A DNA stretch of 64,000 bases from assembly GCA_031253795.1 (NCBI GenBank), contig JAIRVR010000017.1, positions 124,001 to 188,000 on the forward strand, written 5' to 3'. Shown piece after piece: positions 48,663 through 53,689 of this stretch. Source of the stretch: Burkholderiaceae bacterium. Lineage in GTDB: Bacteria; Pseudomonadota; Gammaproteobacteria; Burkholderiales; Burkholderiaceae_C. The position numbers and the translations under genes are program-made. The notes under the pieces are model-generated. The model was not told where the DNA came from. It was given only the letters and a program-made list of their open reading frames with translations, and did no database searches. The stretch's first letter is position 1; each line of letters begins with the position of its first letter.

Positions 48663-50300
48663 ATGACGAGCACCTCCACCATAACGCTGGACCACGTGTC
48701 CTGCGTACTGCCCGACGGCAGAACCCTTTTTTCCGACCTCTGTGAACACTTCGACCAGCGCCGCACCGGCCTGGTCGGCCGCAATGGCGTGGGCAAGTCC
48801 TGGCTGGCGCGGATTCTGGCCGGGCTGCAGGCGCCTTCGCAGGGCCGGTGCCTGCGCAGCGGCACGGTATGGCATCTGGCCCAGTGCACGGACTGGCATG
48901 GCCAGCCTTCGGTCGCCGCGCTGGCCGGGCTGAAGCCGGCGTTCGATGCGCTGGCGCGCATCGAGGCCGGCAGCACGGACCCGGCCGATTTCGAGCGGCT
49001 GGCGGACCGCTGGGATCTGCGCCAGCGATTGCAGGCGCAGCTGGAGATCGAGGGCCTGGGCCATGTGAACGCCGATACGCCCGGCCATGCGCTCAGCGGT
49101 GGCGAGGCCGTGCGCGTGGCCCTGGTGGGGGCCTTGCTGTCGGGGGCCGACCACCTGGTGCTGGACGAGCCCAGCAACCACCTGGATGGCGCCAGCCGCG
49201 CCGCCCTGGCGCGTCAGCTGCAGCGCTGGCCGCGCGGTCTGATCGTGGTCAGCCATGACCGCCGCCTGCTGGAAGGCATGGAACGCACGGTGGAGCTGTC
49301 ACCGCTGGGTCTGCGCAGCCATGGCGGCGGCTACGGCCTGTATGCCGAGGCCAAGGCGCGCGACCTGGCCCGGGCTGGCGAGCAATTGGCGCAACGCAAG
49401 CTGGAGCGCCGCCGCGAAACGCAGCAGCTGCGCGAGCAGCAGGAGCGCCAGGAACGGCGCCAGGCGCGCGGGAGCCGCCAGGGCCAGGAAGCCAACCAGG
49501 CGCGCATTCTGCTGGACCGCCAGAAGGAGCGCAGCGAAGACTCGGCGGGTCGGCTGCGCCTGCAGCAGGCGGCGGCGCGCGAGCGGCTGGACCTGCGCGT
49601 GCGCGAGGCGGCCGGCCAGGTCGAGCAGGCCATGCCCATCCATCTGCAGGGACTGCCCGTGGCGGCGGGCGCAGGCCAGCGTGTCGTGGCCTGGCTGGAG
49701 CAGGTGGTCCTGCCGGGTGCGGACGGCCAGGCGCCGCTCGATCTGTCGCTGCGCGGCGGCCAGCGGCTGGCCATCACCGGGCCCAACGGCTGCGGCAAGA
49801 CCCGGCTGCTCGAGGTGCTGGCGGGCCGGCTGCAGCCCGCCGCCGGCCGGGCCGGCCTGTGCGTCCCCAGCGCCTGCCTCGATCAGCGGCTGTCGGGTCT
49901 GGACGGTACGCTGCCCGTGCTGGACCTGGTGCGCCAGGCCTGCCCCGGCCTGGCCGAGGACCTGCTGCGCACGCGGCTGGCCCAGCTGGGCCTGGGGCCG
50001 CAGCAACTGGCGCTGTCGGGCGAGCAGCTCAGCGGCGGAGAACGGCTCAAGGCCGCCCTGGCCTGTGCCCTGCATGCCGAACCGCCAGCCCAGCTGCTGC
50101 TGCTGGACGAACCCTGCAACCACCTGGACCTGGCTTCCATGCAGGCGCTGGAGGCCATGCTGTGCGATTACCAGGGCGCCCTGGTGGTGGTCTCGCATGA
50201 CGAGGCCTTTCTCGCCGCGCTGGCGCTGACCGACAGGCTGGAGCACCTGCCCGGCGGCTGGCGGCTGGGGCCGGGCGGGGAGGGGGCGCCCGCAACCTAG
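48663..50300 (+). CDS. ABC-F family ATPase (Uup/Ydi-type, translation-associated)
   Basis: 545 residues with two ABC cassettes: Walker A1 'GRNGVGKSW', signature 'LSGGEAVRVALVGALLSGADHLVLDEPSNHLDG'; a long Gln/Arg-rich coiled linker ('ERRRETQQLREQQERQERRQARGSRQGQEANQARILLDRQKERS'); Walker A2 'GPNGCGKTRLL', signature 'LSGGERLKAALAC', then 'LLLLDEPCNHLDLASMQ'. No membrane domain. ABC-F proteins bind ribosomes or act in antibiotic resistance or translational control. Start trimmed to put the first Walker A at the usual position. Its stop overlaps the Crp-family gene end (convergent). Confidence 0.92.
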   Translation: MTSTSTITLDHVSCVLPDGRTLFSDLCEHFDQRRTGLVGRNGVGKSWLARILAGLQAPSQGRCLRSGTVWHLAQCTDWHGQPSVAALAGLKPAFDALARIEAGSTDPADFERLADRWDLRQRLQAQLEIEGLGHVNADTPGHALSGGEAVRVALVGALLSGADHLVLDEPSNHLDGASRAALARQLQRWPRGLIVVSHDRRLLEGMERTVELSPLGLRSHGGGYGLYAEAKARDLARAGEQLAQRKLERRRETQQLREQQERQERRQARGSRQGQEANQARILLDRQKERSEDSAGRLRLQQAAARERLDLRVREAAGQVEQAMPIHLQGLPVAAGAGQRVVAWLEQVVLPGADGQAPLDLSLRGGQRLAITGPNGCGKTRLLEVLAGRLQPAAGRAGLCVPSACLDQRLSGLDGTLPVLDLVRQACPGLAEDLLRTRLAQLGLGPQQLALSGEQLSGGERLKAALACALHAEPPAQLLLLDEPCNHLDLASMQALEAMLCDYQGALVVVSHDEAFLAALALTDRLEHLPGGWRLGPGGEGAPAT

Positions 50301-51034
50301 GGTGCGGGCGGGATCAGGGCGCGCAGGGCCTGCACATCCGTCACCAGCAGGGCCTGGCGGCCTTCCTTGCGCAGCAGGCCGCGCCGCGTGAGCGCGCCCA
50401 GTTCGCGCGTGACCTGTTCGCGGTTGGTGCTGATCTTGCTGGCCAGCGTGGCGTGGGAGGGGGCGGGGTCCAGGCGGGCCGATCGGTCGGGGGCCACGCC
50501 GGCCTCCTGGGCCAGGCGCAGCAGCTCGGCATGCAGGCGCGTGGGCACGCCCTGCGTGCTCAGTTCCATGACGCGGTCGGTCAGGCGCCGCACCAGGCCG
50601 GCCAGGTCGACCATCACGCGCATGGCGATGGCGGGTTCGCGCGCCAGCAGGGCCAGGAAGTCCTCGCGCGTGAGGCTGGCCAGCAGCGAGGATTCGAGGG
50701 TGACCACATCGGTGGAGCGTGCATGGCCGTCGATGGCCGCCAGGTCCCCGAAATGCTCGCCCGCACCATGATCGCGGAAGCTGACCTCGCGACCGCCTGG
50801 CGAGTAGGTGGTGATGCGCACGCGGCCCGAGACCAGGAAGAAGACATCGCTGCCCGTGGAGCAGCGGCTGAACACGGGCTGGCGGGCCGCCAGCGGCCGC
50901 CATTCGCAATCGGCCGCGATGCGGTCCAGGCTGGCGTCCGCCAGTCCGTCGAACAGGGCGATGCGGCGCAGGGCGAAGCTCGATGGCGTGTGTGCGGCAG
51001 AGGTGGACATCGGGGCGGGTGTCGAAGAAGCCAT
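50297..51034 (-). CDS. Crp/Fnr-family transcriptional regulator
   Basis: 245 residues. A cyclic-nucleotide-binding domain ('PVFSRCSTGSDVFFLVSGRVRITTYSPGGREVSFRDHGAGEHFGDLAAIDGHARSTDVVTLESSLLASL') is followed by a winged helix ('APSHATLASKISTNREQVTRELGALTRRGLLRKEG'). The cassette 'GEHFGDLAAIDG..RSTDV' resembles the phosphate-binding cassette of cAMP-responsive Crp (GE…RS). No N-terminal four-cysteine cluster, so not Fnr. ATG 51034 is a choice between two in-frame starts. It is divergent from a membrane adenylate cyclase across 102 bp, so it likely responds to that cAMP. Confidence 0.9.
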   Translation of the reverse strand: MASSTPAPMSTSAAHTPSSFALRRIALFDGLADASLDRIAADCEWRPLAARQPVFSRCSTGSDVFFLVSGRVRITTYSPGGREVSFRDHGAGEHFGDLAAIDGHARSTDVVTLESSLLASLTREDFLALLAREPAIAMRVMVDLAGLVRRLTDRVMELSTQGVPTRLHAELLRLAQEAGVAPDRSARLDPAPSHATLASKISTNREQVTRELGALTRRGLLRKEGRQALLVTDVQALRALIPPAP

Positions 51035-51136
51035 GGGAACCAAAACGGGGGCCGGCGCCACCAAGAGAACCTGGACCGGCTGCCGGTTTTGCCCGATTAT
51101 CGGCCTGCCGTGCTCCGGCGGCCCCTTACCCCTTTC

Positions 51137-52777
51137 ATGGCCCGCGTACCCCGTCCCTCCCTGGCATTTCCCTTTCTGCGCAGCCTGCACTGGTCCAGCG
51201 GCCTGGTGCTGTGGCTGTATGCGGCCCTGCACCTGGGCAACCATGCCCTGGGCCTGGTGTCGCTGCAGGTGGCCGAGTCGGCGCGCGCGGTCATCCACGG
51301 GCTGTGGCGTTCGGCGCCGGGCACGGTGCTGCTGTATGGGGCGCTGGCCCTGCACATGGCCATGGCCCTGCATGCGCTGTGGCAACGGCGCAGCCTGCGC
51401 ATGCCGCCCCTGGAGGGGCTGCGCCTGGCCCTGGGCCTGTGCCTGCCCCTGCTGCTGGCCCTGCATGTGCCGGCCACGCGCCTGGCGCAGGAACTGTGGT
51501 CCGTCGAGCCTTCGTACGACCGCATCGTGCGCTCGTTCTGGAACCCTTCGAGCATGGCCGCCCAGTTGCTGCTGCTGTGCGCGGCCTGGGCCCATGGCTG
51601 CATGGGCCTGCATCTGGCGCTGCGCGCACGCCCGGCCTGGCGGCGCTGGCAGCCGCTGCTGCTGACCGGGGCCGTGCTGCTGCCCGTGCTGGCGGCCCTG
51701 GGCATTCTGTCCATGGTGCGCGAAATCCAGGCCGCGGACCTGCCGGCACCGCCCGTGCCTTCGCCCGAGGCTGCGCAATGGCTGCGCGGCCTGACGGCGG
51801 ACCTGCGCGAGGGCTGGCTGGCACTGCTGGCCATTCCCCTGGTCGGGCGCGGCCTGTGGCGCATGTTGCGCGCCCGCGGCGGCGCCCGCGTGCAGCTGCA
51901 CTATCCGGGCCGCACGGTCCAGGTGCCGCGCGGCCTGAGCGTGCTGGAGGCCAGCCGCGAGCACGGCATCGCGCACCTGTCGCTGTGCGGTGGCAAGGCG
52001 CGCTGTTCCACCTGCCGAGTGCGTGTCAGCGGTCCCCCGGCCCACCTGCCCCGGAGCCGGCGCGCCGAGCGCCTGACGCTGGAGCGCGTGGGCGCGCCTG
52101 ACGATGTGCGCCTGGCCTGCCAGCTGCGGCCCACGGGCGACATCCAGGTGGTGCCGCTGTTTTCCGCGGCCGCATCGCAGCGTCCGGCGCGCCGGGGCGA
52201 GGAGCGCGAGGTGGCGATCCTGTTCGTGGACCTGCGCCGCTGGTCCGGCCTGGCCGAGCGCCAGTGGCCCGTGGACCTGTCCTGGGTGCTGGACCAGTAT
52301 TTCGAGCTGGTGGGCCAGGCCGTGCGCGACAGCGGGGGGCTGGCCAACCAGTTCATCGGCGACAGCGTGATGGCCATCTTCGGCCTGGACCAGGACCTGG
52401 ACACGGCCTGCCGCCAGGCCGTGCATGCCAGCGCCCTCATCGACCGGCGCATGCAGGACTGGAGCAGCGGCTTCGAGGCCCAGTTCGGCCAGCCGCTGGA
52501 CTTCGGCATGGGCCTGCACGCGGGCCGCGCGGCCGTGGGCCGCGTGGGCTTCGAGCAGACGACCAGCTTCACCGCCGTGGGCGAGGTGGTCAATACCGCC
52601 AGCCGCCTGCAGGAGCACACCAAGCGCGCCGAAGCCCGCCTGGTGCTGTCGCAGGAGGTGGCGCGCCGCGCCGGGGTGGAAGCCGGGCTGGGACGGGCCA
52701 CCGAGGTCCAGGTGCGCGGGCGCTCGCGGCCGCTGTGGGTGCTGCAGGTGTCAAGGCCGGCGCTGCAGTGGCCCTGA
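51137..52777 (+). CDS. Membrane-anchored ferredoxin-linked class III adenylate cyclase
   Basis: 546 residues. Residues ~10-245 form about six membrane helices with clustered His residues (H32, H36, H73, H79, H110, H153, H159), reminiscent of the diheme-b anchor of succinate:quinone reductases. Next, a 2Fe-2S ferredoxin at ~250-350: 'CGGKARCSTC' (Cys284, 290, 293) and a fourth Cys in 'RLACQL'. Then a class III cyclase, ~360-540: metal Asp in 'ILFVDLRRWSGL' and 'FIGDSVMAIFG', plus 'FTAVGEVVNTASRLQ'. A redox-gated cyclase like S. meliloti CyaC is the closest idea I know. Divergent from the Crp-family gene. Confidence 0.9.
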   Translation: MARVPRPSLAFPFLRSLHWSSGLVLWLYAALHLGNHALGLVSLQVAESARAVIHGLWRSAPGTVLLYGALALHMAMALHALWQRRSLRMPPLEGLRLALGLCLPLLLALHVPATRLAQELWSVEPSYDRIVRSFWNPSSMAAQLLLLCAAWAHGCMGLHLALRARPAWRRWQPLLLTGAVLLPVLAALGILSMVREIQAADLPAPPVPSPEAAQWLRGLTADLREGWLALLAIPLVGRGLWRMLRARGGARVQLHYPGRTVQVPRGLSVLEASREHGIAHLSLCGGKARCSTCRVRVSGPPAHLPRSRRAERLTLERVGAPDDVRLACQLRPTGDIQVVPLFSAAASQRPARRGEEREVAILFVDLRRWSGLAERQWPVDLSWVLDQYFELVGQAVRDSGGLANQFIGDSVMAIFGLDQDLDTACRQAVHASALIDRRMQDWSSGFEAQFGQPLDFGMGLHAGRAAVGRVGFEQTTSFTAVGEVVNTASRLQEHTKRAEARLVLSQEVARRAGVEAGLGRATEVQVRGRSRPLWVLQVSRPALQWP

Positions 52778-52905
52778 GGGCAAGACGGGGGCCGCTGTTT
52801 GCGAAAGACTGTGCGTTTAGGCACTGACGCGCAGGCACCCCCGGGGAGAGACTTCAGGCATGCAGAAAGCAATCACGCGCTGCAGGTTTTGATCAAGGAA
52901 TCGCC

Positions 52906-53268
52906 ATGAAGCACACCAAGCAACTCCTCGCCATCGTCGCACTGTCCGCCGCCGCATGGTCGGGCCTGGCCTCGGCCGCCCCGGCAGGCGCCCAGGTCTC
53001 CTCGGAAACCTGGTTCGGCGACCAACCCGTCAGCACCGGCCGCGCCCTGTCGCGTGCCGAAGTGGAGGCCGATCTGGCCATGTGGAAGCGCGCCGGCCTC
53101 GATCTGTACCAGAACATCGATGGCAACTACTGGGATGCCGACTACCAGCAGCACCTGGCCCAGTACCAGCGCCTGCGCAGCGGCCCCGAGTACCTGGCCG
53201 AGCTGCAGCGCCTCGGTGGTTCCGTGACGGCGGCCGAAGGCCAGGGAGCCGGCCGTGTCCCGGGCTGA
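52906..53268 (+). CDS. DUF4148-type secreted protein
   Basis: 120 residues with a signal peptide (MKHTKQLLAIVALSAAAWSGLASA). The mature part 'TGRALSRAEVEADLAMWKRAGLDLYQNIDGNYWDADYQQHLAQYQRLRSGPEYLAEL' resembles the DUF4148 family, small periplasmic or exported proteins common in Burkholderiales and of unknown function. An AAGGAATCGCC ribosome-binding site is present. It overlaps the DoxX gene by 14 bp. Confidence 0.8.
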   Translation: MKHTKQLLAIVALSAAAWSGLASAAPAGAQVSSETWFGDQPVSTGRALSRAEVEADLAMWKRAGLDLYQNIDGNYWDADYQQHLAQYQRLRSGPEYLAELQRLGGSVTAAEGQGAGRVPG

Positions 53269-53689
53269 AGCATTGTCGCGTTCCGCACCGGCCCAGGGTG
53301 CCAATGACCTGGGCCCGCTGGTGGCCCGGGTGCTGCTGAGCCTGCTGTTCCTGTACAGCGGGGTCGGCAAGCTGCTGGGGCCGGAGGCCACCATGGCCTA
53401 TATCGCCAAGGCCGGCCTGCCTCTGCCCATGCTGTCCTATGCCATGGCCCTGGTGGTGGAACTGGGGGTGGCAACCGCCCTGCTGCTGGGCTACCGGACG
53501 CGGGAGGCCGCGGCCGTGATGGCGGTGTTCAGCATCGCTTCGGCGCTGATGTTCCACAACCAGTTCGCCGACAAGGGCCAGCTGATCCAGTTCCTCAAGA
53601 ACCTGGCGATCGCCGGGGGTTTTGTGCAGCTGATGCTGGGCCCCGTGGGCCGGCTGGGCTGGGATGGACGGCGCCAGGGCACACGCTGA
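53255..53689 (+). CDS. DoxX-family membrane protein
   Basis: 144 residues with a GTG start and a CCAGGGAGCC ribosome-binding site. Four helices: 'LVARVLLSLLFLYSGVGKLLGPEATMAYIAKAGLP', 'MLSYAMALVVELGVATALLLGYRTREAAAVMAVFSIASALMFHNQF', and 'NLAIAGGFVQLML', with 'F..SG..K' and 'FH..F' typical of DoxX/YphA-like proteins. Role unknown; relatives associate with quinone or thiosulfate redox. Overlap with DUF4148 suggests co-transcription. Confidence 0.85.
   Translation: MSRAEALSRSAPAQGANDLGPLVARVLLSLLFLYSGVGKLLGPEATMAYIAKAGLPLPMLSYAMALVVELGVATALLLGYRTREAAAVMAVFSIASALMFHNQFADKGQLIQFLKNLAIAGGFVQLMLGPVGRLGWDGRRQGTR

Follow-up and report, generated by a model that had tools for sequence, protein, structure and literature searches.

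In a window of 64,000 nucleotides from the genome of a Burkholderiaceae bacterium, we found a gene for a Crp-family regulator lying divergent from a gene for a CyaC-type nucleotide cyclase, with a CRP-type operator in front of a neighboring pair of DUF4148 and DoxX genes (Table 1). We consider it probable that these elements make up a local redox-to-transcription circuit, in which a redox-gated cyclase acts through a dedicated Crp to activate DUF4148-doxX. By analogy with published CyaC, the membrane anchor would hold two b hemes in redox equilibrium with the quinone pool, while the [2Fe-2S] ferredoxin and cyclase domains would convert redox state into cyclic-nucleotide output. The nucleotide would load the divergently encoded Crp, which would occupy the operator at 52810-52825, in a class II position, and from there activate the DUF4148-doxX operon. 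Of this scheme, the layout of the genes and the conservation of the operator are read directly from sequences, and the later steps are inferred. The sensor, reader, operator, promoter geometry and target operon all lie within about 3.4 kb. Coding sequence calls agree with the original prediction of a Crp-cyclase pair at 50297-52777, and the two genes are separated by 102 bp. The assembly that holds the window is 2.9 Mb in size and 59% complete, and Delftia acidovorans and D. tsuruhatensis are among its closest relatives that carry the locus.

Table 1. Features of the crp-cyaC locus and its predicted target operon (positions in the window).
Feature	Position	Strand	Description
Crp-family regulator gene	50297..51034	-	245 aa; cyclic-nucleotide cassette and HTH_Crp_2; recognition helix R-E-xxx-R as in CRP
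Near-palindrome CGATTATCG	51094..51102	.	crp-cya intergenic; GATAAT, -10-like in the crp direction; likely promoter element
CyaC-type class III nucleotide cyclase gene	51137..52777	+	546 aa
Six-helix membrane anchor	51170..51880	+	Residues 12-248; H32, H36, H73, H110, H153; predicted diheme b
[2Fe-2S] ferredoxin domain	51908..52135	+	Residues 258-333; predicted ligands C284, C290, C293, C328
Class III cyclase domain	52193..52747	+	Residues 353-537; D365, D409, N486, R490; Q405/T479 at substrate-specifying positions
CRP-type operator TGTGCGTTTAGGCACT	52810..52825	+	Predicted Crp binding site
-10-like GAGACT	52848..52853	+	Operator end to A.ACT, 23 nt; class II geometry
DUF4148 small exported protein	52906..53268	+	Predicted target gene; PF13663, 5.6e-9
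DoxX membrane protein	53255..53689	+	Overlaps DUF4148; predicted second gene of target operon; PF07681, 5.9e-17

By sequence, the window cyclase belongs to the published CyaC group and its architecture is not new. A 2016 eLife paper grouped 30 class IIIb cyclases of alpha- and beta-proteobacterial origin into one cluster. According to its account, a ferredoxin in these proteins follows an SDH/FRD-like cytochrome b anchor and precedes the catalytic domain, and two hemes are predicted (PMC4821796). Sinorhizobium meliloti CyaC is stated to carry a [2Fe-2S] cluster (PMC10463352, Fig. 6 legend), and its activity is reported to be sensitive to quinone and redox state (PMC10463352 and a 2019 paper cited therein). 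The original prediction of a CyaC-like redox cyclase was right, as seen from membership of the CyaC group and from His and Cys residues that are invariant in 57 relatives, but it also treated the ferredoxin as something extra relative to CyaC. This was wrong, as CyaC itself has the [2Fe-2S] cluster (PMC10463352; for the cyclase cluster, PMC4821796, as described there); because the window protein belongs to a ferredoxin-containing cluster, the domain is not an addition to the CyaC plan. At least 546 relatives of the cyclase are encoded in the genome collection.

The six-helix anchor with clustered histidines that had been read from the letters holds up in a structural model and in an alignment of 57 family members, which takes in sequences from Ensifer and Rhizobium. 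AlphaFold2 models the anchor as helical with six long helices (pLDDT 93.0, pTM 0.87). H32, H73, H110 and H153 are kept in all 57 members and H36 in 56, a level of conservation that exceeds chance occurrence in these sequences; H32 and H36 are both candidates for a predicted heme ligand. The tetra-His signature of the six-helix anchors in the 2016 cluster is present. In a Foldseek search with the anchor model, the only confident matches were to the diheme cytochrome subunit of Wolinella succinogenes quinol:fumarate reductase (QFR): the top solved match was FrdC (2bs4_C, probability 1.00, TM 0.56), with a non-significant E-value of 0.16, and another was the same subunit in 1e7p_C (probability 0.97). 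A profile search of the anchor against the PDB gave no matches, and Pfam Sdh_cyt was weakly matched in 2 of 41 members (best 0.012). By analogy with the known diheme anchors, we infer that this one binds two b hemes.

The ferredoxin domain matches Pfam Fer2 over its whole extent (1.4e-9), and its four cysteines, which would bind the [2Fe-2S] cluster, are invariant in the 57 members and have adrenodoxin-type spacing (CX5CX2CX34C). Cys284, Cys290 and Cys293 had been correctly picked out beforehand as part of a [2Fe-2S] ferredoxin, and the fourth ligand, Cys328, had not been named. The earlier class III cyclase call also stands: residues 357-529 match Pfam Guanylate_cyc (1e-11), the domain matches the solved structures 1wc1, 3r5g and 2w01, and the catalytic residues–the metal-binding D365 and D409 and the transition-state residues N486 and R490–are all present. 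Two distant beta-proteobacterial homologs (L008:1501-3042 and L041:1501-3081) have kept the His anchor and ferredoxin and have lost some catalytic positions in the cyclase domain; they are possibly redox proteins or pseudo-cyclases.

ATP-specific class III cyclases have Lys together with Thr or Asp at the substrate-specifying positions. In the window cyclase, Gln405 replaces the canonical ATP-specifying Lys of the VDKFIGD motif, with Thr479 still at the second specifying position. Gln is found at this position throughout the Burkholderiales homologs, whereas the aligned alpha-proteobacterial CyaCs keep Lys. We ruled out the change as a mark of Crp-linked cyclases, because beta-proteobacterial homologs that lack an adjacent Crp carry Gln too. 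Given the Lys-to-Gln change, the sequence does not establish cAMP as the product; cAMP may be what the cyclase makes. An alternative is that it makes cGMP, or both nucleotides, and that the Crp reads cGMP or either one. The distribution of Gln and Lys among the homologs points in this direction, as does the replacement by Leu of the Thr that contacts the purine in CRP, but Thr479 is as in adenylate cyclases, the Glu/Cys pair of guanylate cyclases is absent, and Gln occurs at the base-specifying position in some mycobacterial adenylate cyclases. The related regulator Clr accepts either nucleotide, both cAMP and cGMP engaging its TT motif (PMC10127613), which favors the alternative; on the whole we think it rather unlikely.

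The regulator has the features of the Crp family, with a cNMP cassette (Pfam cNMP_binding, 5.7e-18), an HTH_Crp domain (HTH_Crp_2, 5.6e-11) and the DNA-contacting R-E-xxx-R recognition residues of CRP, which are invariant in 49 orthologs. The original prediction of a divergent Crp-family gene with a cyclic-nucleotide cassette is therefore upheld. The set of canonical cAMP contacts (Glu72, Arg82, Ser83, Thr127 and Ser128 in CRP) is incomplete, the window Crp having Asp, Arg, Ser, Leu and Thr at these positions. Among the orthologs, the equivalents of Arg82 and Ser83 are invariant, Glu72 is replaced by Asp in 40 of 49, and Thr127 by Leu in all 49. With the first pair invariant and Glu72 and Thr127 changed, cyclic-nucleotide binding by the Crp is likely, and the ligand may be cAMP, cGMP or either.

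The association between the regulator and the cyclase is tight. Almost all relatives with about 48% identity or more, which are all Burkholderiales, have a divergent Crp next to the cyclase; the exceptions are two loci without Crp (L107 and L183) and one that is cut short (L108). At every Crp-bearing cyclase locus (49 distinct Crp sequences) the two genes are divergent, and no Crp was found beside any of the alpha-proteobacterial or distant cyclase homologs examined. Among 401 family genomes, the Crp is present in all 21 that encode a cyclase with 51% identity or more (Fisher P about 6e-30, a value that ignores shared ancestry). Six of the 401 have the Crp without a window-type cyclase, so the Crp can persist without it. 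In a phylum-wide sample of 299 genomes, the Crp was present only in the window genome and two relatives, with no close relatives in the other 296.

These data bear on a second alternative, that the Crp is a nucleotide-independent or other-ligand Crp/Fnr regulator of DUF4148-doxX, placed beside cyaC through shared regulation or hitchhiking. The universal Leu at the Thr127 position and the prevalent Asp at Glu72 would fit such a protein, as would the six genomes with Crp alone, at least two of which have the operator at DUF4148. Against it stand the invariant equivalents of the phosphate-binding Arg and Ser, the tight co-occurrence with the window-type cyclase, and a locus (L166:5825-9619) in which a related Crp (48%) has as its divergent neighbor a 996-aa protein resembling a different class III cyclase. 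The latter locus suggests that pairing with cyclases is a more general trait of this Crp subfamily. We therefore doubt that the Crp is indifferent to the cyclase: the co-occurrence (21/21) and a matching operator at the locus make it very probable that the neighboring Crp reads the cyclase's output locally, as had been proposed.

The operator lies 3' of the cyclase gene, 80 bp before the DUF4148 gene. Allowing up to 2 mismatches in 12 positions, the palindrome TGTGCG-N4-CGCACA occurs in 63 of 70 regions upstream of Crp-adjacent DUF4148/DoxX genes, whereas 100 dinucleotide shuffles gave 2.4 on average and never more than 7; with at most 1 mismatch it is in 48 regions, against 0.23 expected from shuffles. 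Because the relatives are not independent, these counts overstate the number of independent events. The position of the operator tracks the target genes: it is 3' of the cyclase in Delftia and Acidovorax and beyond crp in many Variovorax, it precedes a DUF4148 gene downstream of crp in two loci (L062 and L103), and it is kept between crp and DUF4148 in two others from which the cyclase is missing (L158 and L159). It is absent at DoxX starts that are internal to an operon. The distance from the operator to an A(C/G)ACT element is 22 nt in 53 of 64 cases and 23 nt in 4 (57/64 together), which as read from sequence is the geometry of a class II CRP-activated promoter, with a predicted center near -41.5/-42.5.

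We noticed the operator first in a subset of loci and afterwards counted it across all, so sites at unlinked DoxX genes are the cleanest independent check. In three other genomes with the Crp, the composite pattern of operator and -10 element also stands before an unlinked DoxX gene, and therefore gene neighborhood alone cannot account for the association between operator and DoxX. The window genome, D. acidovorans and D. tsuruhatensis have a single occurrence of the composite apiece, always at this locus; the window genome being incomplete, uniqueness is better judged from the complete relatives. Several composite matches in genomes without Crp proved to be coding sequence, mainly in a succinate dehydrogenase flavoprotein-like gene. 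Sites of the TGTGCGCAAATGCACA type with a -10-like element recur in genomes without this cyclase (L203, and also G007, G020 and G048). In a genome without cyaC (L219:4076-5286), a 48% Crp relative lies beside a small exported protein that has the same operator. The operator proposed for the window Crp could also be bound by a related Crp paralog.

A large Crp regulon is unsupported, since TGTGCG-N4-CGCACA is not enriched genome-wide relative to a reversed-pattern control in 10 genomes. Weaker targets could have escaped this search, because operators of the Crp type may depart from the consensus, and the cyclase might then feed a general cyclic-nucleotide pool in which the local operator is one target among many; the lack of enrichment, the single composite promoter in each of the three genomes above, and the one class III cyclase found in the window's own 59%-complete genome make this improbable. 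We entertain only tentatively the narrower reading of a private circuit of one cyclase, one Crp and one promoter, in which a cyclic nucleotide, perhaps cGMP or a mixture in place of cAMP, would carry the redox state of quinone and heme to a Crp with an altered purine pocket, and this Crp would turn on the DoxX and DUF4148 genes.

In the crp-cya intergenic region, the best match to the operator had at least 3 mismatches in 12 in all 49 relatives, and we dismissed a Crp operator there. An element of the type [GC]NATTAT[GC]N is present in 35 of the 49, in most of them as GCATTATGC, and is missing from the D. acidovorans group. We read this conserved ATTAT near-palindrome as a promoter element; in the window, CGATTATCG may be a shared -10 for divergent transcription.

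Work on other bacteria has linked DoxX-like proteins with thiol and oxidative stress (PMC7907618), a link whose fit to a redox signal is only suggestive. Many Variovorax-type loci (L060, L074-L076 and L091-L100) have a gene resembling TauE/SafE sulfite exporters, which lies divergent from the DoxX/DUF4148 gene under operator control. In the open-licence literature on DoxX, DUF4148, Crp, adenylate cyclase, Delftia and Variovorax we found no description of the circuit. The enzyme type is known from a root-nodule bacterium, and it is the downstream half–Crp, operator and DUF4148-doxX–that is new. CyaC is documented as a cyclase that reads the quinone pool, and its target genes are not established. 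Here, a whole path from sensor to target operon can be proposed from sequence in the culturable genera Delftia, Acidovorax and Variovorax, which makes the locus a simple system in which to study how a class III cyclase is gated by the redox state of heme or Fe-S. The proposed circuit would also give the DUF4148 and DoxX proteins, which are poorly understood, a link to respiratory redox signaling.

Compared to known systems, the window cyclase shares with S. meliloti CyaC (SMc01818) a six-transmembrane anchor of predicted diheme type, a [2Fe-2S] ferredoxin and a class III cyclase, and differs from the aligned alpha homologs in having Gln instead of Lys at the ATP-specifying position. The neighboring regulator of S. 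meliloti CyaC is the TetR-type CycR, in contrast to the divergent Crp here. The 6TM adenylate cyclases of the 2016 cluster (cluster 1; for example, Rhodopseudomonas palustris Q132R4) likewise have a ferredoxin before a class IIIb cyclase, four spaced His in the anchor, and a distribution across alpha- and beta-proteobacteria, and their anchor is of the SDH/FRD-like cytochrome b kind, which the window anchor may resemble in fold; relative to the account of cluster 1 in PMC4821796 we found no differences in the protein, and the Crp, operator and DoxX targets are absent from that account. The best solved relative of the window Crp is S. meliloti Clr (PDB 7pza/7pzb; E = 6.7e-22, about 27% identity), a cyclic-nucleotide receptor that works with cyclases, as proposed for the window Crp. 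Clr regulates broadly and has GE and, as its purine-contact motif, TT, whereas window-type Crps have LT or LS and mostly GD, adjoin their cyclase and appear to have one main target. In E. coli, CRP uses an R-E-xxx-R recognition helix, and its class II promoters have a 16-bp TGTG...CACA palindrome centered at about -41.5. The operator here resembles these sites in its 16-bp palindrome and in its placement at about -41.5 as judged by the -10, but half-site position five is C rather than the A of E. coli CRP sites, and the -10 is A(C/G)ACT-like, unlike that of E. coli CRP class II promoters.
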